Shown here: piece after piece, positions 1 to 32,153 of the stretch
Numbering within the stretch: the first letter of the stretch is position 1
Layout: the number at the start of each line of letters is the position of its first letter
Origin: an uncultured Chitinophagaceae bacterium
GTDB taxonomy: Bacteria; Bacteroidota; Bacteroidia; Chitinophagales; Chitinophagaceae
Assembly (NCBI GenBank): GCA_903870685.1
Contig: CAIQDX010000049.1
Location: 1 to 64,000 of the forward strand
DNA length: 64,000 nt
Direction: 5' to 3'
Notes under the pieces: model-generated
Databases searched by the model: none
Seen by the model: the letters and a program-made list of their open reading frames with translations, nothing else
Told to the model about the DNA's origin: nothing
Translations under genes and position numbers: made by a program

Positions 1-1101
1 ACCATGGTTGTCGCAGGTGTGTATTTAGTAGCAAGATTATTCCCAATATTTTCTGTTGATGAATTTGCATTGCAAATCGTTACTTATGTTGGATTGGTTT
101 CTGCATTAATTGCTGCAGTTATTGCTTGCACACAAACAGATATTAAAAGAGTGTTGGCATATTCAACCATGTCGCAGATTGGTTATATGATGTTTGCATT
201 GGGTGTTGCAAAACAAGGTGGTGAAGAAGGTTTGGGTTACATGGGTTCGATGTTTCATTTATTTACACACGCATTTTTTAAATCATTATTATTTCTTGGT
301 GCAGGCGCTGTTATTCATTTAGTTCACAGCAACGATATGAAAGATATGGGTGGCTTAAGAAAACTGATGCCAATAACACATCTTTCATTTTTAATTGCAT
401 GTTTGGCAATCGCAGGTATTCCGCCGTTTGCAGGATTTTTTAGTAAGGAAGAAATTTTATTGGCCGCATTCAACTCAAATAAATTAGTGTATGGTGTTGC
501 ATTGTTTACATCGGGATTAACTGCGTTTTATATGTTCCGTTTATATTATTCAATTTTCTGGAGTAAAGAAGCACATGTTCATGATTCGCATCATGGTGAA
601 GGAACATGGTCGATGAAATTGCCATTAATTATTTTAGCCATCATGGCTGTTGTTGCAGGACTCATTCCTTTCTCAAATTTTGTAACGAATGATGGTGCTG
701 CTTTAGAAACGCATATCAATTATATTTTTTCAATTGCTCCGGTTTTATTAGCAATTACTGGAATTGGACTGGCAACTGTTTTATATAAAAATGTAAATGC
801 AAAACCAGATGCAATTGCAAATGCATTTGGTGGATTTTATAAATCAGCGTACAGAAAATTTTATATTGATGAAGTTTATTTGTTCATCACAAAAAAAATA
901 ATTTTTAATTTAATTGGAAGACCAGCGGCATGGTTCGATAAAAATATTGTTGATGGTTTCATGAATTTATTAGCAACTGTTACTGCTAAATTTTCGGAAT
1001 TAATTAAAGGATTACAATCTGGTAAAGTGCAGAATTATACTTTGTATTTTTTTGGTGGAATAGTTGCTTTGGCTGTGTTGTTTATTTATGTGTGGAAGTA
1101 A
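1..1101 (+). CDS. nuoL: NADH-quinone oxidoreductase subunit L, 3' part
   Basis: C-terminal part of the antiporter-like membrane subunit NuoL of respiratory complex I. The reading frame is already open at base 1, so the gene begins outside the window; about 366 of some 620 residues are present. The visible part contains the discontinuous-helix region with the family motif HAFFKSLLFLGAGAVIH and the IPPFAGFFSKEE loop. A long C-terminal stretch follows that should form the lateral amphipathic helix and the last membrane helix (YTLYFFGGIVALAVLFIYVW). It pumps protons in the inner membrane together with NuoM and NuoN, which follow in the same direction. The 122-base gap to nuoM carries a copy of the dispersed 20-base repeat. 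Identification is secure. Confidence 0.97.
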   Translation, partial: TMVVAGVYLVARLFPIFSVDEFALQIVTYVGLVSALIAAVIACTQTDIKRVLAYSTMSQIGYMMFALGVAKQGGEEGLGYMGSMFHLFTHAFFKSLLFLGAGAVIHLVHSNDMKDMGGLRKLMPITHLSFLIACLAIAGIPPFAGFFSKEEILLAAFNSNKLVYGVALFTSGLTAFYMFRLYYSIFWSKEAHVHDSHHGEGTWSMKLPLIILAIMAVVAGLIPFSNFVTNDGAALETHINYIFSIAPVLLAITGIGLATVLYKNVNAKPDAIANAFGGFYKSAYRKFYIDEVYLFITKKIIFNLIGRPAAWFDKNIVDGFMNLLATVTAKFSELIKGLQSGKVQNYTLYFFGGIVALAVLFIYVWK

Positions 1102-1156
1102 TGAATGTGAAGATGTGCAAATTAAAAATTTGCAAATGATGAGTTGTGTGGAAAGC

Positions 1157-1176
1157 GTACAAGAGTGCGACGCCAG
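1157..1176 (+). repeat. dispersed 20-base repeat, copy 1
   Basis: GTACAAGAGTGCGACGCCAG, two mismatches from the consensus GCACAAGAGTGCGACGCAAC that recurs in four other intergenic gaps of this window (20787, 35889, 47708, 50188). It lies between nuoL and nuoM, inside an operon. The first half can fold as GCAC-AAGA-GTGC in the exact copies. Confidence 0.7.
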
Positions 1177-1223
1177 TAAAGTTGATTAAAGATTTATAGC
1201 CGGGTTTATAAAAATATTATAAA

Positions 1224-2714
1224 ATGAATTTATCGTTACTTATCATCTTGCCTTTTATCACAGCAATAATAATATTGTTTGTAAAAGGATTGAAGCAAGT
1301 GCGCAGCGTAGCTTTGACGGGTTCGTTACTTCAATTGGTTTTGGTATTTGATTTATTATTTCAATACCTGAAAGAAAGAACACACGACAGTTCGCAAATG
1401 TTATTTCAATACAATTATAATTGGTATGATAGCTTGCATATTAATTATCATGTTGGTGTTGATGGCATTTCTGTTGCGATGATTTTATTAACTTCTTTTG
1501 TTGTAGTTGCAGGTGTGCTTGTTTCGTGGACACAAGAAACATTGAATAAAGAATTTTTCTTTTTGTTGATCTTCTTAAGCATGGGTGCTTACGGATTTTT
1601 TATTTCGCTGGATTTATTTACTATGTTTTTCTTTTTAGAAGTGGCAGTAATTCCAAAATTTTTATTGATAGGTATTTGGGGAAGCGGTAAAAAAGAATAC
1701 AGTGCCATGAAGTTGGCATTAATGTTAATGGGTGGTTCTGCATTAATATTTGTTGGGTTATCGGGTTTATATTATTTCGGTGTTAATGGAAATAATTCTT
1801 TTGATCTGTTAACTATTTCGCAGGCAAATGTTCCAATGCTTGTTCAAAAAATATTTTTTCCATTTTTATTTATAGGCTTTGGTGTGTTCACTGCATTATT
1901 TCCATTTCATACTTGGGTGCCCGATGGTCACTCTTCTGCACCAACAGCTGCGTCAATGTTCTTGGCCGGTATATCAATGAAACTCGGTGGCTACGGGTGT
2001 TTGCGCGTTGCAACTTATTTAATGCCCGATGCTGCACACGAATATCAATGGATCATTATTTTATTAGCAACCATTGCAATCATCTATGGTGCATTCGCTA
2101 CGATGATGCAGAAAGATTTAAAATATATCAACGCATATTCTTCCATTAGTCATTGCGGATTTGTTTTATTAGGAATTGGAATGCTGACTCGAACATCAAT
2201 CAATGGCGCTGTAATGCAAATGGTTTCGCATGGATTAATGACAGCCCTTTTCTTCGCAGCCATTGGAATGATCTATAGCAGAGCACACACAAGAATGGTA
2301 GATCAGTTAGGTGGATTATTAAAAGTAATTCCATTCATCTCAACAGTATTTGTGATTTCAGGTTTATGTAGTTTAGGATTACCGGGCTTTAGTGGATTTG
2401 TTGCAGAGATGACGGTCTTCATGGGCTCCTGGCAAAACACTGATGGATGGTATCGATTAGCAACAATTTTATCTTGCGCATCTATTGTTGTAACGGCAGT
2501 TTATATTTTACGCGCTACCGGTAAAGCAATAATGGGACCAATAACAGATTCGCATTTTAATCATTTAACTGATGCCGCATGGAATGAAAAATTTGCTGCA
2601 GGATTATTGATCATTGCAATTGTTGTGATTGGTATGGCGCCTTTTTTATTAACCGATTTGATTGGCTCTGGAACAGATGCGATCATGAATAAAATTTTGG
2701 TAATTGTAAAATAA
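1224..2714 (+). CDS. nuoM: NADH-quinone oxidoreductase subunit M
   Basis: Complex I antiporter-like subunit, 496 residues, about 14 membrane helices, full length for the family. Seen motifs are the helix-5 glutamate in MFFFLEVAVIPKFLLIGIWG, the PFHTWVPDGHSSAPTAASM segment, and the lysine in the following GISMKLGGYG. These correspond to residues essential for proton translocation in the family. The start ATG follows a non-coding gap. nuoN begins 8 bases after the stop, so the two are co-transcribed and probably translated in sequence. No base composition change relative to nuoL or nuoN is apparent. Confidence 0.97.
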   Translation: MNLSLLIILPFITAIIILFVKGLKQVRSVALTGSLLQLVLVFDLLFQYLKERTHDSSQMLFQYNYNWYDSLHINYHVGVDGISVAMILLTSFVVVAGVLVSWTQETLNKEFFFLLIFLSMGAYGFFISLDLFTMFFFLEVAVIPKFLLIGIWGSGKKEYSAMKLALMLMGGSALIFVGLSGLYYFGVNGNNSFDLLTISQANVPMLVQKIFFPFLFIGFGVFTALFPFHTWVPDGHSSAPTAASMFLAGISMKLGGYGCLRVATYLMPDAAHEYQWIIILLATIAIIYGAFATMMQKDLKYINAYSSISHCGFVLLGIGMLTRTSINGAVMQMVSHGLMTALFFAAIGMIYSRAHTRMVDQLGGLLKVIPFISTVFVISGLCSLGLPGFSGFVAEMTVFMGSWQNTDGWYRLATILSCASIVVTAVYILRATGKAIMGPITDSHFNHLTDAAWNEKFAAGLLIIAIVVIGMAPFLLTDLIGSGTDAIMNKILVIVK

Positions 2715-21392: not shown

Positions 21393-21875
21393 AATTTAAT
21401 TGAGGCTTCTTTTAGAAGAATAATATTTAGAAAACTGTTTCAAATCTAAAGGTCTTTTGCTCGCGCATGAGCTTGCTTTTAATTTGTTTTAACAAAATTA
21501 TTTACTTTTTTTGTATGCAATTTTTAATTAAGAATCTCTTATATTTATTCAGTCAAGTGTTGAAGAATATTTCAGCGGTTTTTTCTCCATATTAAGCAAA
21601 TATCGATTCTGGTGTTAACGTTATATATGCATTACTAAGTTAATTAAAAATGAGCCTTTGCATATTAAAATTAACTTTCTCGGCATTCCGGCACTTTATA
21701 AAGTCTCAAAAATGTGGTCCTTTTTTTTGACAAGTGATATATCAATAGACAGAAAATATCAGTGGAGGCCCCTTTTTTATATAACATTTTCTATTTTTTA
21801 TGATTCAACGCATAAAATTTCCTTCTCAGCATAAGTAGTTTTAATCTACAATAAATTACCCTTAAACAATTTGAT
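21393..21875 (+). other. 483-base non-coding stretch at the left edge of the nitrous oxide block
   Basis: No supported gene on either strand. It is AT-rich and contains a 10-base palindrome TGATATATCA at 21735-21744. Two CCTTTTTT-type runs flank it. It separates the acetyltransferase from the fasciclin gene and marks the left boundary of the nos-related region. No tRNA fragment or direct repeat of the tRNA at 32573 was found here. Confidence 0.6.
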
Positions 21876-22442
21876 ATGAAAAAAATAGCACTGCTATTAG
21901 TAGCAAGTTATGTGTTCACCCTCTCAGCATGTAATAGTACCGATACAGCTTCCGCCAGCAATGGATCTGCTTCAGTTACTGAAACAAAGGGAGCTGGTCA
22001 GTCAGGTGTGAAAGATGATGCCTCACAAAAAAATGTGGTTCAGGTTGCCATCGGAAGTAAAGATCATACAACATTGGTCGCTGCGGTTAAAGCTGCAGAA
22101 TTGGTAGATGCATTAAGCAATGCCGGTCCTTTTACAGTTTTTGCTCCCACCAATGCAGCTTTTGATAAACTGCCGGCAGGTACAGTGGATGGTTTATTAA
22201 AACCCGAAAAGAAAGAAGCTCTGACCGATATTTTACAATACCATGTTTCTGTTGGTGTATATAAAGCTGAAGCATTACAGGACGGTCAAAAGATCGGACA
22301 GGTAAATGGTGATAATATCGTGATTACTAAAAAGGATGGAAAAATTATGGTGAATGGCACTGCAACCATCATTGCATCCATACCTGCATCAAACGGGATC
22401 ATTCATGTTATCGATGGCGTATTACTTCCTCCAAAAAAATGA
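21876..22442 (+). CDS. fasciclin (FAS1) domain lipoprotein
   Basis: Secreted lipoprotein of 188 residues. The signal peptide ends at a lipobox (VFTLSACNST, Cys 19); a low-complexity Ser/Ala/Gly linker runs to about 50. One FAS1 domain follows with the H1 segment TLVAAVKAAELVDALSNAGP and FTVFAPTNAAFDKLPAG, plus the H2 segment GIIHVIDGVLLPP at the end. FAS1 domains mediate adhesion or matrix contacts. It is convergent with the globin gene at the end of the nos operon, and its composition resembles the nos block more than the left flank. A direct link to N2O reduction is not shown by sequence. Confidence 0.92.
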   Translation: MKKIALLLVASYVFTLSACNSTDTASASNGSASVTETKGAGQSGVKDDASQKNVVQVAIGSKDHTTLVAAVKAAELVDALSNAGPFTVFAPTNAAFDKLPAGTVDGLLKPEKKEALTDILQYHVSVGVYKAEALQDGQKIGQVNGDNIVITKKDGKIMVNGTATIIASIPASNGIIHVIDGVLLPPKK

Positions 22443-22505: not shown

Positions 22506-22901
22506 TTATAGATGATGTGGTTCCTTTTGAGATTGAAATAACTTTTCCTGCATTACAGTAGAAATACTAATCGCTCTCTGTTTGATCAGTTTTGCATTAG
22601 CGCCTTTAAAATATTCATCTACTATTGCTATGAATAGCTTATTCCATTGTTCAAAATGTTTATGGTTTAACGGTCTGATATGGTGCAGGTGGTTATGTAA
22701 ATTCATCGGGTTTCCAGAATAGGTTCCGGTAAAAAATAAAACATTCTCCCAAAAATCATACATGATGGGCAAATGCTTTTCCCAATTAATTTTTGCCACA
22801 TCATTAAAAATAAAACCGATCTCTTCATCAGCTTTTACCTTGTCGTAAAAGCTGTTTACCAGCAACTCAATATCTTTCCGGTCTGTAATATCCTTTTTCA
22901 T
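22506..22901 (-). CDS. group III truncated hemoglobin
   Basis: Small heme protein of 131 residues with the 2-on-2 globin pattern of group III: FYDKVKADEEIGFIF near the start, HLPIMYDFWENVLF, and the likely proximal histidine within LNHKHFEQWNKLF. Related globins bind O2 and NO. It is the last gene of the nos operon: its ATG overlaps the nosY stop by 4 bases, so it is translationally coupled to the ABC permease. This position suggests a role in NO or O2 protection of nitrous oxide respiration. That role is inferred; the family call is strong. Confidence 0.88.
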   Translation of the reverse strand: MKKDITDRKDIELLVNSFYDKVKADEEIGFIFNDVAKINWEKHLPIMYDFWENVLFFTGTYSGNPMNLHNHLHHIRPLNHKHFEQWNKLFIAIVDEYFKGANAKLIKQRAISISTVMQEKLFQSQKEPHHL

Positions 22902-23665
22902 AGATCTTTTCTATTGAATTTTCTTGTTGAGAAAAATACCGGAATTCCGATCCATATCAGCAACACGGTAAATGAGAATATCCCACCGATATATGTACCG
23001 AAAAAATCTTTGAATATCGCTCCGGTATATCCCATCATGGCTGAAACATCTAATTGTAATAAGATCAATATCCTTCCCAGATCGATAGGATTCAATGCAC
23101 TTATTGCGATCATTGGTTTCTCTAAGGGATAATCCGCAAACTGAAACAGTAGAAATAATACCAGCCCATCAAACAAGAGTGAAAAATATAACCATAATAA
23201 GATCGCAATTCCAATACCCTTTGCCTTGTCTCTCGTTTGAACAGCGGCAAGCATAGCTATCGCAACAAAAATCACACTCAGCAAAATACCTATACCAATC
23301 ATCATACAACCAACGCTGTTAGGTTGATACAGTAATACAGGAATACCTGCGCCGATAAAAAATGCAAAAGATAATGACGATGCAAGTCCGGTAAACAAAC
23401 TCAGCCAGATAGATTTTCTTTTCAATGGCTGACTCACCAGTAACTCAATAAATTCGGCACTGTTATACACATAGATCGTAGAAAAAATAATGCTCACTAA
23501 GGGAACTACAATTAAAATGACATTCAATAAACTTAATAAGCCTTTGCTGTTGTTGTCTTCGAGACTAAATACACTGAAAGAAGTAATTAATAGAAAAACA
23601 GTGTACACCAATACGATCCTGTTACGGAGAATATCGGTCATTACATATTTAATGATTTTTTTCAT
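22898..23665 (-). CDS. nosY: NosY-type ABC transporter permease
   Basis: Integral membrane protein of 255 residues, six hydrophobic helices, first at about 15-33 (ILRNRIVLVYTVFLLITSFS). It matches the ABC-2 permease NosY that, with NosF and NosD, supports copper-sulfur cluster (CuZ) assembly in nitrous oxide reductase. Helices include FAFFIGAGIPVLLY and VIFVAIAMLAAVQT. The segment DLGRILILLQLDVSAMMGYT is typical of NosY. It starts 2 bases after the nosF stop and overlaps the globin start, so it is tightly coupled on both sides. Confidence 0.9.
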   Translation of the reverse strand: MKKIIKYVMTDILRNRIVLVYTVFLLITSFSVFSLEDNNSKGLLSLLNVILIVVPLVSIIFSTIYVYNSAEFIELLVSQPLKRKSIWLSLFTGLASSLSFAFFIGAGIPVLLYQPNSVGCMMIGIGILLSVIFVAIAMLAAVQTRDKAKGIGIAILLWLYFSLLFDGLVLFLLFQFADYPLEKPMIAISALNPIDLGRILILLQLDVSAMMGYTGAIFKDFFGTYIGGIFSFTVLLIWIGIPVFFSTRKFNRKDL

Positions 23666-23667
23666 GG

Positions 23668-24372
23668 CTAATTTTTGGTCATTACGTTAGCGATCGCCTT
23701 TGACAATTTTTCTTCGCCCGTATCTTTTCGCAATGCTTCAATTGTTTTATGAAAACATAGTTTCCCGTCTTGCATATAAATGACCTGTGTGATCAGATCA
23801 TCCAGATCACTTAATACATGGGATGTGATCAGTACCAGTTTCCCCTTTTGCTTTTCGGTGATTATTTTCTCTTTGAAGATTTCAGAAGCAACAGGATCTA
23901 AGCCGGCGGTTGGTTCATCCAGGATCAATACTGCAGGATCAAATAAAAATGCCAATGCTGCACTTACTTTCTGTGTTGTACCTCCTGATAATGTGCGCAT
24001 TCTCTTATGCATTAACTCATTCAACTTAAATGCCTTGATCAGATCTTCATCTGTTTGTAACGAATTGCTGCGTATATCTTTCATCATATCCAATACATGT
24101 CCGATCGTCATATTATCAGGATAACGTCCAATCTGAGGCATATAGCCTATCTGTTCACGGTATTTCCAGTCGTGTAAAATATTCTTTTCGTTAAAAGTGA
24201 TAAAGCCGCTGTCGGGTACCACCATTCCCAATATACTTTTTATCAATGTAGTCTTACCGCTTCCATTCGGGCCTATCAAAGCAATACACTCACCCTTTTT
24301 ACAGGCAACAGAAACATTATCCAATGCTTTTAGTTTCCCAAACTGCTTCGATACATTGCTTGCAATAATCAT
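23668..24372 (-). CDS. nosF: NosF-type ABC transporter ATP-binding protein
   Basis: ATPase of 234 residues. Walker A is GPNGSGKTTLIKSIL at about 34-48, the Q-loop lies in YMPQIGRYPDNMT, the signature is LSGGTTQKVSAALAF, and Walker B is AVLILDEPTAGLDP. The D-loop and switch His (LITSHVLSDL) are intact. It partners NosY in the inner membrane for maturation of NosZ. It lies between nosD and nosY on the minus strand. The short ABC form with a NosD/NosY context makes the assignment firm. Confidence 0.94.
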   Translation of the reverse strand: MIIASNVSKQFGKLKALDNVSVACKKGECIALIGPNGSGKTTLIKSILGMVVPDSGFITFNEKNILHDWKYREQIGYMPQIGRYPDNMTIGHVLDMMKDIRSNSLQTDEDLIKAFKLNELMHKRMRTLSGGTTQKVSAALAFLFDPAVLILDEPTAGLDPVASEIFKEKIITEKQKGKLVLITSHVLSDLDDLITQVIYMQDGKLCFHKTIEALRKDTGEEKLSKAIANVMTKN

Positions 24373-24411
24373 AAACGAACTTTATTATTTTATTAACCCG
24401 ACGTTCCTTTT

Positions 24412-25644
24412 TTAAAACAATCTTTTCATCATAGGAAAATTATCTTTCAAATTTTCAGGTGTAAGACTGGGCAATACTTTTTCCGTTTTATCCAACAATG
24501 ATGTCATAAAGCTTCTGAACAACATCATGGCAGGTGGATTCTTTTCAACGATCATCGAAAACATGCTTACCGGTCTGTAAGGAATATCACCGATCTTATC
24601 TTTATTCAGATCATATCCATCGTATTTGTCCCAGTAATTATTATTGAAAGTATTCAATACCAGACTGCCATTTGTCCCTACGTCGAATGTGTTACCAATG
24701 AAATTATTTTTCTCCACAACAATATCCATACAACTTGCTTGTATCTTCATACCCCATCCGTTATTTTTGAAAGTGTTTTTCTGCATATGAATTCTACTAG
24801 CACCTTCCATATAAATGCCGCTCGTATTTTTTTCAAAAAAATTGCCTTCAATATAACTGTCGGAAATTTCTTTCAATAAGATACCATAGGCCGCATCTCC
24901 CCAATTTTCTTTAAAATAATTATTGAACATTTTTACACCATGTGAATACATCACAGAAACACCTGAACCATTGTTTTCGAAACTATTGCTGATATAAGCA
25001 TCATCACTGGAGAACATGAAATGCAATCCGTAGCGGATATTTTTAAAAGATACATTTCGCCAGATAACAGAATGTGTTACAAATTCAAAATAGATCCCGT
25101 CTCTGTGGCCGCTGATCGTATTGGCAATAATCTGCAAACTATCACTCTTCCAGCAATGAATGCCATTGCCGCTTTGTTGTTCTTCTGAATTATGTGCTGA
25201 GATCTGATTGTTTTTTATGAAACAATTTTTTACGTTCTGTAAGTAAATACCGAAAAAAGTATCATCCAGTATATTATTTTGGATAACCACATCTCTGCGA
25301 TTATAAATTTTAATGCCGGCAATGTCCACAATACTGGAAACACCGCTGTGTATGATCTTAAATCCATCCACAACAACTGCATCCGCTTTTATAGAAATGA
25401 TCTCATACTTTTTTTCGCCATCTAATACAGGATGATCAATTCCCTTTAAAACGATCCTTTTATTGATCACTAAGTTCTTTTCGAAATACAAACCTGCATC
25501 TACCAAAACAGTATCGCCAACGGTGGATACTGCTATCGCAGAGGTAATTGATTTGTATGATTGATTCTTACCAACGCGAATTGTCTTAGCAAAACAATTG
25601 CTGTAACATAGCGCAAACAAGAATATCATCAAAACATATCTCAT
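24412..25644 (-). CDS. nosD: NosD copper-enzyme maturation protein
   Basis: Periplasmic right-handed beta-helix protein of 410 residues. A signal peptide ends around residue 19 (LFALCYSNCFA). The rest consists of repeated CASH-type strands, such as NNILDDTFFGIYLQN, GIYMEGASRIHMQKNTF and NNGWGMKIQAS. NosD interacts with NosF/NosY and is required for CuZ cluster assembly of NosZ. The start ATG overlaps the stop of the upstream NosL fusion by 4 bases. Length and repeat pattern match NosD. Confidence 0.94.
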   Translation of the reverse strand: MRYVLMIFLFALCYSNCFAKTIRVGKNQSYKSITSAIAVSTVGDTVLVDAGLYFEKNLVINKRIVLKGIDHPVLDGEKKYEIISIKADAVVVDGFKIIHSGVSSIVDIAGIKIYNRRDVVIQNNILDDTFFGIYLQNVKNCFIKNNQISAHNSEEQQSGNGIHCWKSDSLQIIANTISGHRDGIYFEFVTHSVIWRNVSFKNIRYGLHFMFSSDDAYISNSFENNGSGVSVMYSHGVKMFNNYFKENWGDAAYGILLKEISDSYIEGNFFEKNTSGIYMEGASRIHMQKNTFKNNGWGMKIQASCMDIVVEKNNFIGNTFDVGTNGSLVLNTFNNNYWDKYDGYDLNKDKIGDIPYRPVSMFSMIVEKNPPAMMLFRSFMTSLLDKTEKVLPSLTPENLKDNFPMMKRLF

Positions 25645-26663
25645 TGGTTCAACTCTCTCCAGGTTATACTTTTGCCGGAATATTGCTGCATTAATTTTTT
25701 CATACTGTCTTCATTTGCAAAAGCCGCAATATTGCCATTCATAGGGCTTCTGAATAATTCGCTATGCAAAATGAATGCCTGATCTGCTTTTACAAAAGCA
25801 TGCTCATTGCTGAAATCAATAAAGTATACATCTGCTATTTCCTTTTGTTCTATCATTTTTGAATGGAGGAATGACAATAAACAATGCGTATCATCAAACT
25901 TATAGGCCTTACCTTTTTTTGTAACTATTTCCGCGCCAAATCGATTATCGCTGATCGTCATTTTACAAAAATCACAACTGTCCTTTCCCATATTAATGGG
26001 CTTAGGTTCGGTCTTGCAACTGCTTAAAAAAAGCAAAGAAATGATCGGGACCATCAATTTTACCGTATCAGCACTGAGCTTCATTTTTTTTACACTCCTC
26101 AGTTCGATGATCAGCAACAATAGAAGTAAAACGCCCACCAATACAAAGATCCATCCGCCTATATCAGGCATTGAGTAAGCACCAAAATTGAGTAATTGTT
26201 TATAGCCTATTAAAGGGGGCTGGTAAGACATACCCGGAACTTTAATGGCAGCTTCCGGATTCAGATCATGCCCATAATTATATTCCCATCGCCAAAAATC
26301 AACCATCGCCAACACACCAAAACTTACAAAAAGCATGAAAAGTATATATAATAATTTTCTTTTCCCTATCAATGCGGTTAACACAAATGCTGCTGCAAAG
26401 AATAAAATAAAATAAGGCAACACAGAAAATTCAACAAAATCTTTTTCATGCAAGGTCTTCATGCCGATATAATGGTTCAACCCATTGATAATATCAACAT
26501 TGCCTCCCAATCGGTTCGCATAAATGGCCAAACTTAATCCTTCGGGATACTGCGGGGCATTCAATTCAATACTCCACATCGGAACATATAAAACAGCAAT
26601 GAGCGAAAGGCCGCATAAGAATAAAATGATCCTCGTTGCTTTTTTTAATCTATTCGTTTTCAT
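25641..26663 (-). CDS. membrane protein fused to NosL copper chaperone
   Basis: A 340-residue two-part protein. The first about 200 residues form a membrane domain with helices at roughly 10-30, 80-100, 104-122 and 168-190. A second hydrophobic stretch with a lipobox-like LLFLSSCKTEP follows at about 205-220. The remaining 120 residues are a NosL domain with the copper motif CDFCKMTI, then FDDTHCLLSF. NosL normally is a separate lipoprotein that delivers Cu(I) to NosZ. The retained internal lipobox-like sequence suggests a fusion of two ancestral genes. It is 66 bases after nosZ, with a hairpin in the gap, and overlaps nosD by 4 bases. Confidence 0.85.
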   Translation of the reverse strand: MKTNRLKKATRIILFLCGLSLIAVLYVPMWSIELNAPQYPEGLSLAIYANRLGGNVDIINGLNHYIGMKTLHEKDFVEFSVLPYFILFFAAAFVLTALIGKRKLLYILFMLFVSFGVLAMVDFWRWEYNYGHDLNPEAAIKVPGMSYQPPLIGYKQLLNFGAYSMPDIGGWIFVLVGVLLLLLLIIELRSVKKMKLSADTVKLMVPIISLLFLSSCKTEPKPINMGKDSCDFCKMTISDNRFGAEIVTKKGKAYKFDDTHCLLSFLHSKMIEQKEIADVYFIDFSNEHAFVKADQAFILHSELFRSPMNGNIAAFANEDSMKKLMQQYSGKSITWRELNQ

Positions 26664-26729: not shown

Positions 26730-28724
26730 TTATTTCTTTGTTGTACTGTCTTCTTTTGGCAGATTAGTGCCTAAACTGTAACTGATAGGTACATTGCTTC
26801 CTGCGGGTGACACTCTTACATACCCCTGCATTTCCTGATGCAATGCACTGCAAAAATCTGTACAATAGATAGGTATAATACCCACTCTGTCCGGTGTCCA
26901 TTTCAATGTTTGTGTTTCACCAGGCATGATCAGCAATTCTGCATTACCGGCTGCTTTCACAGCAAAGCCATGCGGCACATCCCAATCCTGTTCAAGATTG
27001 GTGATATGGAAATAAACTTCATCACCGAGTTTGATACCTTCAATATTATCTGGTGAGAAGTGTGAACGAATAGCAGTCATATAAACATGCACTTTATTTC
27101 CTTCTCTCACCACTTTGGTTGTGCTTTCTCCTTTAGAAACATATTTATTTGTGTTCTCGTCGATCTTAAAGAATTTCACAGAATTATTCTTGATCACATC
27201 AGCCGCAACAGCTTGTGCATAATGCGGTTCGCCAATAGTTGGGAAGTCTAAAATCAATTGCATTTTATCGCCACTGATATCATACAACTGTGCACTTTGT
27301 GCTAATTCAGGACCTGTTGGCAAATAACGGTCTTTTGTGATCTTGTTGTATGCGATCAGGTATTTCGCATTTGGCTTTTTGGTATCTCCGCCCGGTACAC
27401 ATAAATGACCAACAGAATAATAGGTAGGCGCTCTGTCCAGCACTTTCAGATCTTTGATATTCCATTTCACCACTTCAGATGAAACGAAGAATGATGTATA
27501 AGCATTCCCTTTACCATCAAACTCTGTGTGTAAAGGTCCGAGACCCGGTTTCTTTACCTCACCGTATAAAGCAGATTCATATTTGATGATCGGAATACCA
27601 TCATAATCGCCGATATAATCTTTAGCAGCAATGGCTTTCTGTATCTTATCAAAACTGAAAACAGGAATCAATGCAGCAAGTTTACCGCTACCTACAATGT
27701 ATTCTCCGGTTGGATCAACATCGCAACCATGCGGTGATTTAGGGCAAGGAATAAAATAGCAAATATCTTTCAGCTCTTTTGTATCCAGAACAGTTACTTC
27801 TGTTTTAATTTCAGAAGTAGCAGTATGTGTTTTTTCGTCATACACATTATGCGCATATTTTACAGATTGCTTTCTTCCTTTACCTGCTTTCAAATATTCT
27901 TCTGCTTTCTTCCAGTTTACAGCCATGATAAAATCTTTATCATTCTGTGAAGCATTTACTTCCAATAAAGTATTGGCTCTTTCTGTATTATAGCAGGAGA
28001 AGAAAAACCACCCATGAGATTTTTCTTTACCGGAATGACTAAGGTCAAAATTTACACCGGGACATTGCAGTTGAAATGCAATATCCATTTTACCATTGCC
28101 TTTATCAACACTGATAAAACTGATGGTGCCTTTAAAATTTTTCTTGTACGTATTAATAGGAACATCGCCATTGGCATCATCAGGAGGTACACTGAATCTA
28201 GTGCCGGCTACAATATATTCTGTGTTTTCGGTAATGAAAGGAGAAGAGTGATTACCTGCACTATTGGGCAATTCAATGATCTCGGAAGTATGAAAAGTAG
28301 TGAGATCAACTCTTGCTACACGGGGTGTATTGTTGGCATTGGCAAATATCCAGCGACCATCGATCTCTCCATTTGTTTGAGAAAGGTCCAAATGGTGTTG
28401 ATCATCCCATGGAATAAAACCATGTGATGTGTTCAGCATCGGTTTTGTTTCTTCACTAAAGCCATATCCATTTTCAGGATTAATGGAAAATATTGGAACC
28501 ACTTTTAAAAGCCTTCCACTGGGTAATCCGTACACACTCATTTGTCCGCTGAAACCACCGGAAACAAAATTGTAGAACTCATCGTATTTACCGGGAGCAA
28601 CATAAACTTTGGCTGCCGCATCAGCACTTACAGCATTACCTGCATTTTTGGGTTTACAGGCAATGAAGCCTGTTACTAATGCAACTGCTATCAATGCCAT
28701 TGCACTTAACTTATAATTTCTCAT
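26730..28724 (-). CDS. nosZ: nitrous oxide reductase, clade II-like
   Basis: Terminal reductase of N2O respiration (N2O to N2), 664 residues. The N-terminus is a Sec-type signal with a lipobox (LVTGFIACKPK, Cys 23) rather than a Tat motif, which fits clade II. The beta-propeller holds CuZ histidine motifs FIPWDDQHHLDLS, PKSPHGCDVDP, GPLHTEFDGKG and IGEPHYAQAV. The C-terminal cupredoxin holds the CuA site CTDFCSALHQEM. I start at 28724; an in-frame upstream ATG at 28829 would place the signal peptide at position 36 and overlap the cytochrome gene. No nosR gene is present, so electrons probably arrive through the cytochrome c encoded upstream. Confidence 0.96.
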   Translation of the reverse strand: MRNYKLSAMALIAVALVTGFIACKPKNAGNAVSADAAAKVYVAPGKYDEFYNFVSGGFSGQMSVYGLPSGRLLKVVPIFSINPENGYGFSEETKPMLNTSHGFIPWDDQHHLDLSQTNGEIDGRWIFANANNTPRVARVDLTTFHTSEIIELPNSAGNHSSPFITENTEYIVAGTRFSVPPDDANGDVPINTYKKNFKGTISFISVDKGNGKMDIAFQLQCPGVNFDLSHSGKEKSHGWFFFSCYNTERANTLLEVNASQNDKDFIMAVNWKKAEEYLKAGKGRKQSVKYAHNVYDEKTHTATSEIKTEVTVLDTKELKDICYFIPCPKSPHGCDVDPTGEYIVGSGKLAALIPVFSFDKIQKAIAAKDYIGDYDGIPIIKYESALYGEVKKPGLGPLHTEFDGKGNAYTSFFVSSEVVKWNIKDLKVLDRAPTYYSVGHLCVPGGDTKKPNAKYLIAYNKITKDRYLPTGPELAQSAQLYDISGDKMQLILDFPTIGEPHYAQAVAADVIKNNSVKFFKIDENTNKYVSKGESTTKVVREGNKVHVYMTAIRSHFSPDNIEGIKLGDEVYFHITNLEQDWDVPHGFAVKAAGNAELLIMPGETQTLKWTPDRVGIIPIYCTDFCSALHQEMQGYVRVSPAGSNVPISYSLGTNLPKEDSTTKK

Positions 28725-28773: not shown

Positions 28774-29241
28774 TTATTTGATACCATCATTTTTGCGCAT
28801 GAATTCATAAATTCCTCTGGCATCTTCATCGCTTACATTCTGATTGGGCATCCTCACCAAACAGATCTCCAGAAGCGCTTGTGCTTTGGGATCTTTATTC
28901 AGCATAGCATCTGTATTGGTAACAAAATTCATGATCCATTCTGCAGAATGCCTTTTGGTAACTCCTGTCCATCCCGGACCTACTAACTTTTCTCCTGTCA
29001 ATTTGTGGCAGGCGCTGCATTTTACTGTATATACTTTTGTACCGGCCTCCAGCATTTTTGCATCAAGGCCAGATGCAACGTCTACTTTTGTAAACTTTCC
29101 CTCGCCTCTTTGAGGATCATAAGACGGATTATCGTTAGCTGTTGCTTCACTTCCCGGCGCTTTCGCAGACGATCCGCCATTTTGATTTCCACAAGCATAG
29201 GCAGTAACCACTACCAAAATCATTACCAGAACTTTTTTCAT
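28774..29241 (-). CDS. lipoprotein cytochrome c, first gene of the nos operon
   Basis: Class I monoheme cytochrome c of 155 residues. Lipoprotein signal with Cys 17 (MILVVVTAYACGNQ), a disordered linker to about 55, then a heme domain with CSACH and the distal methionine in LVRMPNQNVSDED. It probably donates electrons to NosZ in the periplasm. The ATG at 29241 gives a proper signal; an in-frame ATG at 29274 overlaps the inferred -7 element. A Crp/Fnr-type box lies 63 bases upstream of the start, at 29304-29317. The nosZ start follows its stop by 49 bases. Confidence 0.9.
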   Translation of the reverse strand: MKKVLVMILVVVTAYACGNQNGGSSAKAPGSEATANDNPSYDPQRGEGKFTKVDVASGLDAKMLEAGTKVYTVKCSACHKLTGEKLVGPGWTGVTKRHSAEWIMNFVTNTDAMLNKDPKAQALLEICLVRMPNQNVSDEDARGIYEFMRKNDGIK

Positions 29242-29303
29242 GCGACTATATTTTTTATTTATAATTGATTGCACAAGATTAGCTAACCCCCATTCGGCAT
29301 TTT

Positions 29304-29317
29304 ATGCGTGTAATCAT
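29304..29317 (-). promoter_or_regulatory. Crp/Fnr-type box of the nos operon
   Basis: ATGATTACACGCAT on the minus strand: one perfect half-site ATGAT, a 4-base spacer and a weaker second half. The first nine bases are identical to the box at 30081. The centre lies 36.5 bases upstream of the last base of a -7-like TAATCTTG (29281-29274). Confidence 0.65.
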
Positions 29318-29398
29318 AACCGGGAAAGAAAAATATTAATGTTTATAACACCAATGAAGGGCATTACCGGTAAGCCTTTAATCGTAGGAAACTAAAAC

Positions 29399-29412
29399 AT
29401 GACCATTATCAT
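29399..29412 (+). promoter_or_regulatory. Crp/Fnr-type box before the regulator gene
   Basis: ATGACCATTATCAT: ATGAC-N4-ATCAT, one mismatch from a perfect inverted repeat. It lies in the 234-base divergent region between the nos operon and the crp-family gene. Its centre is 55.5 bases upstream of the end of a TAACTTTA -7-like element (29454-29461), a more distant placement than at the other three promoters. Confidence 0.6.
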
Positions 29413-29475
29413 GAATAAGGTCTTGTATAAAAAATAGATTCGTTCAATCTTCATAACTTTAATTACTTTATTCTC

Positions 29476-30078
29476 ATGACTGAGATGATTGATATTGATA
29501 CTTTACTTGCCTGGGGCGCCGCTTATAAAAAAGTTGCCGCCGGGGAAATTCTTTACAAAGAAGGAAATCAATGTTCATTTTACTATCAATTAGTCAGTGG
29601 TAGTATCAGATGGGTAAATATTGATGATGAAGGGAAAGAATTTATTCAAACTATTGTTGAACCAGGCGAATGTTTTGGCGAAATGCCCTTGTTTGATGAT
29701 GGCCAATATGCTGCTACAGCGATCGCCGATGAAGACGCGGTCGTTATCAGATTATCAAAACCAACATTCCTGCAACTACTGAAAGAAAATTTCGATATCC
29801 ATTTTTCATTCAGTAAGCAATTGGCAAAGAGATTGAGGTTTAAATTTCTGATCCTTAAATCAATTGCCTATCATGCCCCCGAAGCAAGAATAGCTGCACT
29901 GATAAATTATCTCAAAAAAGAAAATAAGAATTTCTGTCCTAAATGCAATCAGTTACAACTTACACGTCAACAAATAGCTGATATGACAGGGTTAAGGGTA
30001 GAAACAGTGATCCGAGCTATGCGTCACATGCATGAAAAAGGTGAACTTGTGATAGACAAAGGCAAAGTATATTGTTAG
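29476..30078 (+). CDS. Crp/Fnr family transcriptional regulator
   Basis: DNA-binding regulator of 200 residues: an N-terminal cyclic-nucleotide-like sensor domain (about 10-120, with PGECFGEMPLFDDGQYAATA), a dimerisation helix, and a C-terminal winged helix (LTRQQIADMTGLRVETVIRA). The recognition helix keeps the Glu and Arg of Fnr (ETVIR versus ETISR) but has Ile for Ser. The four N-terminal cysteines of an Fe-S Fnr are absent, so a heme/NO (Dnr-like) or other signal is more likely. It lies between the nos operon and the NO-related genes, and Fnr-like boxes precede all of these units, including its own. Confidence 0.93.
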   Translation: MTEMIDIDTLLAWGAAYKKVAAGEILYKEGNQCSFYYQLVSGSIRWVNIDDEGKEFIQTIVEPGECFGEMPLFDDGQYAATAIADEDAVVIRLSKPTFLQLLKENFDIHFSFSKQLAKRLRFKFLILKSIAYHAPEARIAALINYLKKENKNFCPKCNQLQLTRQQIADMTGLRVETVIRAMRHMHEKGELVIDKGKVYC

Positions 30079-30079
30079 C

Positions 30080-30095
30080 TATGATTACAATCATA
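30080..30095 (+). promoter_or_regulatory. Crp/Fnr-type box before the membrane protein gene
   Basis: TATGATTACAATCATA, a perfect 7-bp inverted repeat around 2 bases (ATGAT-N4-ATCAT core). It starts just after the stop of the regulator gene. Its centre is 35.5 bases upstream of the end of a TAATTTG -7-like element (30117-30123). Confidence 0.75.
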
Positions 30096-30139
30096 TAGTC
30101 TGTATTTAGCTGTTTCTAATTTGCGACCAAATAAACAGC

Positions 30140-31366
30140 ATGAATGTTTCTCTGCGAAATTGGTTGAGAATTTCAATCTTTAATTTACTGCTTGTAGCCT
30201 CTATCGGAGTTATTCTTCGGTATAAAATTGCATTTTCACTCCCTTTTATAGATCAGAAACATTTATTACATGGTCATTCGCATTTTGCTTTTTCCGGTTG
30301 GATCACACAGGCATTGATGGTTTTGTTGGTTCATCATCTTTCAAAATATAAAGGCGAAATTGTCTTTAAACAATACCGAACACTTTTATTCGGAAATCTC
30401 TTTACAGCTTATGGCATGTTACTCAGTTTCCCTTTGCAGGGTTATGGACTTATTTCAATCAGCTTTTCTACATTGTCGATTATCAATTCCTATTTTTTCG
30501 CAATAAAATTCTGGAAGGATTTAAATGAGGTTAAACATAAGCAAATCAGTTTTCTATGGTATAAGGCGGCTTTACTGTTTAATGTCATTTCATCGTTGGG
30601 AGCTTTTTCACTCGCATATATAATGGCTGCCAAGATCACGAATCAAAATTTTCAATTAGCCGCTGTTTATTTTTTCCTGCATTTTCAATATAATGGTTGG
30701 TTCTTCTTTGCAGGTATGGGTTTATTGTTTTCACAATTAGAAAGAATCGATGCAATCAAAAAAGAATTAAGCATTATTTTCTGGCTATTTAGTATAGCCT
30801 GCCCGCCGGCTTATTTTTTATCTGCATTGTGGATGCCCATCCCATTTTTTATCTATTGCTTTGTTGTGATTGCTGCAATTGCACAATTGATCGGCTGGCT
30901 TTTTTTAGTTAAGCTCATGCGAAAGAATATAATCACCCTAAAGTTGTTTTTTTTTGATCAGGGAAGATGGTTATTAATGCTTTCGGGAATTGCACTTTCG
31001 ATAAAATTAATACTGCAACTGGTTTCTACTGTTCCCTCACTAAGTCAGTTGGCATTTGGATTCAGGCCCATTGTAATAGGCTATCTGCACCTTGTTTTAC
31101 TGGGTGTGACGAGCATTTTTATTATAGGCTATATTCTTTCGCTAGAATTATTATCTGTCGGCAAAGACTTCATGAAAGGCCTTTTCCTATTTATTTCAGG
31201 TATTATTATTAATGAGTTGTTTTTGATGTTACAGGGGGTTGCAGGGCTTGCTTATACGGGCATTCCGTTTATCAATGAAATATTGTTCTGTATAGCCTTG
31301 ATCATGTTCAGTGGCATTTTGATCATGAATGTGCAACTATGCCATTTTAAAAACAAGGTCAGATGA
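30140..31366 (+). CDS. polytopic membrane protein with heme-oxidase-like histidines
   Basis: A 408-residue integral membrane protein with about 12 helices; I do not recognise a named family. A conserved-looking segment LLHGHSHFAFSGWITQAL (about 42-59) and two later helices with histidines, FLHFQYNGWFFFAGMG (about 174-189) and GYLHLVLLGVTSIFIIG, recall heme-ligand positions of heme-copper oxidase subunit I. The CuB signature HPEVY is absent, so it is not a functional oxidase. Its own Fnr-type box and place between the regulator and RIC suggest a role in NO or N2O metabolism, such as NO tolerance. That role is inference. NnrS is an alternative, but its motifs are not evident. Confidence 0.6.
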   Translation: MNVSLRNWLRISIFNLLLVASIGVILRYKIAFSLPFIDQKHLLHGHSHFAFSGWITQALMVLLVHHLSKYKGEIVFKQYRTLLFGNLFTAYGMLLSFPLQGYGLISISFSTLSIINSYFFAIKFWKDLNEVKHKQISFLWYKAALLFNVISSLGAFSLAYIMAAKITNQNFQLAAVYFFLHFQYNGWFFFAGMGLLFSQLERIDAIKKELSIIFWLFSIACPPAYFLSALWMPIPFFIYCFVVIAAIAQLIGWLFLVKLMRKNIITLKLFFFDQGRWLLMLSGIALSIKLILQLVSTVPSLSQLAFGFRPIVIGYLHLVLLGVTSIFIIGYILSLELLSVGKDFMKGLFLFISGIIINELFLMLQGVAGLAYTGIPFINEILFCIALIMFSGILIMNVQLCHFKNKVR

Positions 31367-31385
31367 TCCAATTATTTATTGCAAG

Positions 31386-31399
31386 ATGATTTGAATCAT
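31386..31399 (+). promoter_or_regulatory. Crp/Fnr-type box before the RIC gene
   Basis: ATGATTTGAATCAT, a perfect ATGATT / AATCAT inverted repeat. Its centre is 36.5 bases upstream of the end of a CAACTTTG -7-like element (31422-31429), the same geometry as at the nos operon. Confidence 0.75.
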
Positions 31400-31445
31400 A
31401 AGCTTCAAAAAATAGTCATAGCAACTTTGCTAAAAATTAAACATC

Positions 31446-32153
31446 ATGGAAAATATCAAAGAACAAACATTAAAGAGTATAGCATTAGAACATCATGAAG
31501 TGATCCCTGTTCTGGAGAAATATAGTCTTGATTTTTGCTGTCGAGGTAGTAAAACATTAACTGAAGTATGCATTGAAAAAGATCTCGACATCAGCAGCAT
31601 CATTACAGAAATGCAGCAAACTGCTCCGGTAAAAGCGCAAATGCCCTTTACTGAAATGACTGCGGAACAGCTGATCTCATTTATTCTGATCCATCATCAT
31701 TTTTACGTAAAGAATTCCATCCCTACTATTTATAACCATATAGAAAAAGTAGTGATAAAACATGGCGACAAATATCCAAATATGCAGCAGGTATTGCAAT
31801 TGTTTGCAGCCGTTCGTGAAGAGTTATTACCACATATGCAAAAAGAAGAAATGATCCTCTTTCCTAGAATTAAAGAATTAGTTGCTTCTGTTGAAAATAA
31901 AGATCATCGGACATTTGTCCCTGGCTTTATAGACGGCCTCGTTATGGTAATGGAAACCGAACACGATAATGCCGGTCAGTTAATGTTTGCTATCAGGGAT
32001 CTTACCAATCATTATACAGCCCCTGAAACTGCATGCACAACACATAAGGTTTGTCTGGAAGAATTAAAAGCTTTTGAGGAAGACCTGCATCAGCATGTGC
32101 ATATAGAAAATAATATTCTTTTTCCAATGGCTAAAAAGATGATGGAACTATAG
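31446..32153 (+). CDS. iron-sulfur cluster repair di-iron protein (RIC/ScdA family)
   Basis: Cytoplasmic di-iron protein of 235 residues that restores Fe-S clusters damaged by NO or peroxide. The N-terminal ScdA_N domain has the expected double cysteine LEKYSLDFCCRGSKTL (about 24-39). The C-terminal hemerythrin-like domain has the iron ligands in ILIHHHFYVKNSIP, LLPHMQKEEMILFPRI, METEHDNAGQL and LHQHVHIENNILFP. Induction by NO is typical for the family. Here it has its own Fnr-type box, and a hairpin terminator follows. Confidence 0.95.
   Translation: MENIKEQTLKSIALEHHEVIPVLEKYSLDFCCRGSKTLTEVCIEKDLDISSIITEMQQTAPVKAQMPFTEMTAEQLISFILIHHHFYVKNSIPTIYNHIEKVVIKHGDKYPNMQQVLQLFAAVREELLPHMQKEEMILFPRIKELVASVENKDHRTFVPGFIDGLVMVMETEHDNAGQLMFAIRDLTNHYTAPETACTTHKVCLEELKAFEEDLHQHVHIENNILFPMAKKMMEL

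Follow-up and report, generated by a model that had tools for sequence, protein, structure and literature searches.

The window analyzed here, the whole stretch of 64,000 nucleotides from an uncultured Chitinophagaceae bacterium, contains two groups of genes that diverge from a common intergenic region, with the genes for a c-type cytochrome, NosZLDFY and a globin on the minus strand and those for a regulator, a membrane protein and RIC on the plus strand. The genes considered are as follows.

21876..22442, plus strand, fasciclin-domain lipoprotein of 188 amino acids, a predicted regulon member (PF02469, E 1.7e-35)
22506..26663, minus strand, nosL, nosD, nosF, a nosY-like gene and a truncated globin gene, in an order conserved in relatives
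26730..28724, minus strand, nosZ, clade II Sec-dependent N2O reductase (TIGR04246, E 2e-278)
28774..29241, minus strand, gene for a c-type cytochrome, at the head of the nos operon (PF00034)
29476..30078, plus strand, Crp/Fnr-family regulator of 200 amino acids with the recognition helix RVETVIR (PF00027, PF13545)
30140..31366, plus strand, membrane protein of 408 amino acids with a heme-copper-oxidase-like fold in a predicted model
31446..32153, plus strand, RIC/ScdA/YtfE di-iron Fe-S repair protein (TIGR03652, PF01814, PF04405)

The divergent arrangement of cytochrome c/nosZLDFY and regulator-membrane protein, with or without RIC, was found in most of 53 relatives, the regulator gene being fixed in the cluster. 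The RIC protein matched TIGR03652 with an E value of 7e-59 and 199 bits, slightly under the cut-off of 205. The 408-residue membrane protein had no match in Pfam or NCBIfam; the predicted structure (pLDDT 92) is similar to NorB and to CcoN of cbb3 oxidase, with a Foldseek E value of 3e-7, a TM of about 0.75 and 12% identity. The invariant histidines are H46, H48, H181 and H317, fewer than a complete heme-copper site requires, so that the protein may have a degenerate heme-copper fold and a role in N2O/NO metabolism. A search of the genome with TIGR02376 did not reveal nirK, the only nir gene searched for, and the module thus looks like one for removal of NO and N2O rather than complete denitrification.

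The regulator belongs to the Crp/Fnr superfamily, with matches to PF00027 (3.5e-22) and PF13545 (1e-8), and its AlphaFold2 model (pLDDT 94) showed the CRP fold with CRP as the best fold match. In the recognition helix R174, E176, T177, V178, I179 and R180 were the same in all 52 homologs, with V175 almost invariant, which bears out the initial annotation that Glu and Arg of the Fnr helix (E176 and R180) are kept and Ser is replaced by Ile (Ile179). The contact differing from Fnr is this Ser to Ile change, together with Thr to Arg before the Val. Residues 180 and 181 have been reported by Rodionov et al. to correlate with bases 3 and 6 of the site, respectively (PMC1274295). The corresponding helix residues of the regulator in CRP numbering are V180, E181, Ile184 and R185.

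The N-terminal cysteine cluster of Fnr is absent, since the regulator starts at the beta-roll and its first cysteine, C33, is not invariant; the Fnr model PRK11161 gave 43 bits against a cut-off of 228. The CRP model PRK11753 gave 84 bits against a cut-off of 266, and the positions aligned with the cAMP-binding Arg82/Ser83 of CRP are A79/A80, where almost every ortholog has A, P or V. No match was obtained to a DNR/NnrR model of NCBIfam, and the DNR structure 3dkw was recovered as a distant relative (E 2.6e-24 with a profile), weaker than CRP. A CxxC before the helix-turn-helix (C154, C157) is frequent, the two cysteines being present in 38 and 34 of 46 sequences, although not invariant. Orthologs, defined by at least 34% identity over the whole length and separated from Crp/Fnr paralogs by E value, were sought in 149 genomes of the family. 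An ortholog or close relative was present in about 53 of the 149, about 51 of these with nosZ, and orthologs also occur in Sphingobacteriales, for example Daejeonella and Arcticibacter. Among cultured relatives, Hydrotalea flava and strains of Niastella and Flavihumibacter have the ortholog.

Five inverted repeats (boxes) were located in the window. Scores are those of a position weight matrix (PWM) of 25 positions, which was also trained without the genus of the window to give left-out scores.

21800..21813, plus strand, fifth box, before the fasciclin gene, ATGATTCAACGCAT, PWM 23.7 with the genus left out
29304..29317, minus strand, nos-operon box, ATGATTACACGCAT when read in the direction of nos, PWM 27.1 (26.6 with the genus left out)
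29399..29412, plus strand, box of the regulator gene, ATGACCATTATCAT, one mismatch, matrix score 17.7-18.8
30081..30094, plus strand, box of the membrane-protein gene, ATGATTACAATCAT, exact motif, PWM 25.1
31386..31399, plus strand, box of the RIC gene, ATGATTTGAATCAT, exact motif, PWM 26.2

The initial annotation had listed four repeats of the form ATGAT-N4-ATCAT at 29304, 29399, 30080 and 31386. All four are present, that at 30080 starting at 30081, but only those at 30081 and 31386 have the exact motif; the box at 29304 reads ATGCGTGTAATCAT on the plus strand, equivalent to ATGATTACACGCAT in the nos direction, with two mismatches. Neither was the set complete, the box at 21800 having been missed. 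With the left-out matrix four sites in the window reached at least 20 (nos 26.6, RIC 25.8, membrane protein 24.3 and fasciclin 23.7) and the regulator box scored 17.7, while the number of sites of at least 18 expected per window from 8 Mb of order-2 Markov sequence was 0.016.

Plain counting of the motif in the window and genome was rejected as a discriminator, the copies in the window being only weakly above expectation and many of the exact copies in the genome being coding. Matches with one mismatch numbered 15 in the window against an expected 7.4±2.9, and pattern searches of the genome returned 26 exact sites, 15 of which were within long open reading frames. By count the bare motif is unremarkable and near chance, and the specific signal is the box together with a -7 element at fixed spacing.

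Footprinting was performed with the regions upstream of the nos, membrane-protein, RIC and regulator units in about 50 relatives from Chitinophagaceae, and revealed the common motif tATGATT-N2-AATCATa. The N4 spacer was exclusive, with 97 matches versus 0-4 for other spacers. A nos box scoring at least 20 was present in 43/43 relatives, and sites of at least 16 were found upstream of the membrane-protein gene in 39/47 and of RIC in 15/19. The regulator upstream was the least uniform, 20/43 scoring at least 16 at the -41.5 register. When a second collection of 56 non-duplicate loci was scored with the matrix built on the first, the nos box reached 20 in 50/50, with sites for the membrane protein in 41/49 and for RIC in 13/23. 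None of 178 reversed upstreams of this collection passed 16. Random windows of the same loci gave 5.8% of at least 20 but are contaminated by true sites, for which reason the reversed upstreams are preferred as control. Outside the family, the nos box was found in Daejeonella (L266), Arcticibacter (L275) and a Sphingobacteriales metagenome-assembled genome (L298), and the membrane-protein box in L266 and L298. The scan of relatives that had been recommended for nos, ric and nor genes thus returned boxes at all three (nos 43/43, RIC 15/19, norB loci 6/11), and conservation in related nos loci held in both sets. These comparisons strongly support the view that the boxes mark a real Crp/Fnr-type regulon, conserved with the clade II nos genes of Chitinophagaceae and having a distinct half-site.

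The promoter-proximal half-site at nos is ACGCAT in 24/43 genomes and GCGCAT in 3/43. In the window ACGCAT replaces AATCAT in the nos box (29304-29317) and the fasciclin box (21800-21813), with the outer CAT kept and the inner bases changed, and it may be a weakened half-site.

Downstream of each box a -7 element was identified, the distances being those from the box center to the end of the element.

21836..21843, plus strand, -7 element of the fasciclin gene, TAGTTTTA, 36.5
29274..29281, minus strand, -7 element of the nos operon, TAATCTTG, 36.5
29435..29442, plus strand, -7 candidate of the regulator gene, TAGATTCG, 36.5
30117..30124, plus strand, -7 element of the membrane-protein gene, TAATTTGC, 36.5, in the register aligned with relatives
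31422..31429, plus strand, -7 element of the RIC gene, CAACTTTG, 36.5

Across relatives the nos distances peaked sharply at 36.5 (at least 5/6 matches in 39 boxes), TAATCTTG itself standing at equal distance in 27/43 nos promoters, and the same peak was obtained with 30/38 membrane-protein boxes and 13/17 RIC boxes, adjacent offsets being near background. The distances of 36.5 given earlier for nos and RIC were reproduced, while that of 35.5 for the membrane protein was corrected to 36.5, the former ending at the G of TAATTTG and the latter using TAATTTGC in the register of the relatives. In Flavobacterium psychrophilum TAnnTTTG occupies -12 to -5 (PMC9723704). A distance of 36.5 to the end of this element consequently places the box center at -41.5, the class II position. 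On these Flavobacterium -7 coordinates the dimer site lies where expected of class II Crp/Fnr-dependent promoters (near -41.5), and the class II position first proposed for the nos, membrane-protein and RIC boxes is upheld and conserved in relatives, with the transcription start taken to lie as in Flavobacterium. The box would then stand in for a -33 element, and the predicted starts would be near 29269 (nos), 29447 (regulator), 30129 (membrane protein), 31434 (RIC) and 21848 (fasciclin).

The promoter of the regulator gene had been described as class I on account of a distance of 55.5, at which a second -7 candidate, TAACTTTA, is present in the window. Family-wide, 55.5 was found for 3/85 boxes, compared with 13/85 for 36.5 and 23/85 for 58.5. 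Only the latter two stand out across relatives, and the class I assignment at 55.5 was therefore rejected as unsupported. In the congeners L075 and L076 the box is at the same place before the regulator gene, and the genus keeps the -7 candidate at 36.5, which reads TAGTTTCG in one congener and TATTTTCG in another. Tandem boxes exactly 22 bp apart (-63.5/-41.5) were found in 14/43 regulator promoters, the next most common spacing occurring in 3.

The adjoining units do carry boxes, as first described, but the regulon so delimited is incomplete. The fasciclin lipoprotein is a predicted further member. In the comparison of its box, from which genes truncated at the edge of a locus, with apparent distances of thousands of bases, were left out, boxes were found before free-standing fasciclin genes near nos in L052, L078, L100 and L340, and the fasciclin genes located between nosZ and nosL in other genomes had no box of their own, as expected inside the nos operon. 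A norC-norB-like operon on contig C67 of the same genome (L332, G000:C67; 2103 and 325-1686, minus strand) has a box scoring 20.6 with the right -7 spacing, and norB loci of regulator-bearing genomes had a box of at least 18 in 6/11, suggesting that norCB probably belongs to the regulon. In L087 boxes stand before an additional RIC of greater length, in which residues 92-315 match TIGR03652, and before a short gene that by eye looks MIP18/PaaD-like.

Boxes were also seen at other kinds of genes. In the genome of the window (L072, G000:C94:57000-67000), genes of the 4Fe-4S, cytochrome c and ethylbenzene-dehydrogenase-like (EB_dh) types are clustered with three TCTGAY-N4-ATCATY boxes of the same -7 spacing, probably forming another Crp/Fnr regulon. 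Boxes of the same spacing precede NuoE/NuoF-like genes (C102 of the window's genome; G123) and, within a hydrogenase cluster of G025, a hypA-like gene; the loci are L329, L337 and L336.

From the observed boxes, geometry, conservation and co-occurrence we infer, with a probability of about 0.75, that the local Crp/Fnr regulator is a class II activator of an NO/N2O regulon. The regulator belongs to a Crp/Fnr lineage that accompanies the clade II nos clusters of Chitinophagaceae and of some Sphingobacteriales, and most likely binds as a dimer to tATGAYT-N2-ARTCATa sites centered at -41.5 of Bacteroidota -7 promoters. Class II activation would extend to nos and the globin gene that follows, the membrane protein, RIC, the fasciclin lipoprotein and, where present, norCB. 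The regulator would also activate its own gene, in many relatives via the tandem boxes at -63.5/-41.5. The signal would be NO or a related N-oxide, and neither cAMP nor O2 sensed through an Fnr-type Fe-S cluster.

The identity of the binding protein was considered with respect to two other Crp/Fnr proteins of the genome, the Fnr-like C109, which has an N-terminal cysteine cluster and is clustered with a heme-copper oxidase gene, and the receiver-fused C120. The boxes could be sites of either one, the local regulator being one user among several or having another role, a reading that is less probable but deserves serious weight. Both proteins have E..IR helices; the Ser to Ile change is therefore no proof of private specificity, and Ile may instead reflect a lineage-wide preference for ATGAY. 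This weakens the proposal that a private half-site follows from the Ser to Ile change, while the box set common to nos, membrane protein, RIC and regulator stands. Similar boxes with identical spacing at anaerobic-type genes of the genome or its congeners (C94, the NuoEF-like genes of C102, the hydrogenase cluster of G025) are also compatible with C109 or C120 as users, as are ATGAY-N4-RTCAT boxes in the same register in 10/27 nos clusters without the local regulator. Given these 10/27 clusters, there was no clean swap of half-sites (TTGAY without the regulator, ATGAY with it). However, the C94-type boxes start with TCTGAY and not tATGAT, and membrane-protein or RIC genes beside the regulator have boxes even in loci from which nos is missing or in which it lies at another place (L049, L050). 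Moreover, the strength of the nos box follows the local regulator: a score of at least 20 was obtained in 43/43 genomes with a linked regulator versus 9/27 nosZ-bearing genomes without it (Mann-Whitney p 4e-11, uncorrected for phylogeny). Against this, G020 has the regulator without linkage to nos, and its nos promoter lacks a box of this kind (L085, L238). Overall, box strength favors the local regulator as the binding protein and leaves room for the paralogs.

The direction of control is not revealed by sequence, and Crp/Fnr proteins also repress; a negative relation to nosZ has been inferred for a Crp/Fnr protein of Nitrosophilus labii (PMC11539149). A repressor or dual regulator is nonetheless improbable, as the -41.5 center at nos, membrane protein, RIC and fasciclin and the tandem -63.5/-41.5 arrangement are activator geometries. 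Chance inverted repeats near AT-rich promoters might be suspected from the weak excess of the bare motif in the window and the many exact genome copies that are coding, but this explanation has practically no probability left and is refuted by the comparative data: the boxes are conserved in many genera, the spacing is fixed, and the sites were recovered with the genus-left-out matrix and in the second set of loci. A bolder extension of the preferred reading, rather doubtful at present, is that the regulator is an undescribed N-oxide sensor lineage (for NO or N2O itself, perhaps via the CxxC) and, in Chitinophagaceae, a master switch dedicated to clade II N2O reduction; the ACGCAT half-site would tune the response of nos, and the heme-copper-fold membrane protein would be part of the module.

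Activation of the NO/N2O regulon by the local regulator, as by DNR/NnrR in Proteobacteria, is the best reading by analogy. DNR/NnrR are likewise Crp/Fnr proteins without the Fnr cysteines that act over nor, nos and NO-defence genes via an N4-spaced palindrome (PMC1274295). The same regulon logic is seen in the predicted boxes at nos, RIC and norCB, although the DNR box is CTTGATnnnnATCAAG versus tATGATTnnAATCATa here, where the promoter is of the Bacteroidota -7 type. HcpR/NssR of nitrosative stress are also non-Fnr Crp/Fnr proteins tied to NO metabolism, but have the motifs TTGACnnnnGTCAA, GTAACnnnnGTTAC or TTAACnnnnGTTAA in place of ATGAT. Fnr of E. coli and its relatives share the VET.xR helix with E and R kept, a similar half-site and the class II position; they differ in that here the N-terminal cysteine cluster is lacking, the equivalent of Ser212 is Ile and the half-site begins with A. 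Crp/Fnr control of clade II nosZ has likewise been proposed for Wolinella and Nitrosophilus (NssA/NssB type), with Campylobacterota proteins and TTGA-N6-TCAA sites unlike those found here (PMC11539149). In the literature searched, no regulator or operator was described for the nos genes of Bacteroidota clade II N2O reducers, organisms that are regarded as natural N2O sinks. With regulator, operator and promoter geometry defined, induction of nos becomes directly testable, and the membrane protein and fasciclin lipoprotein become predictable from sequence as members of the regulon.
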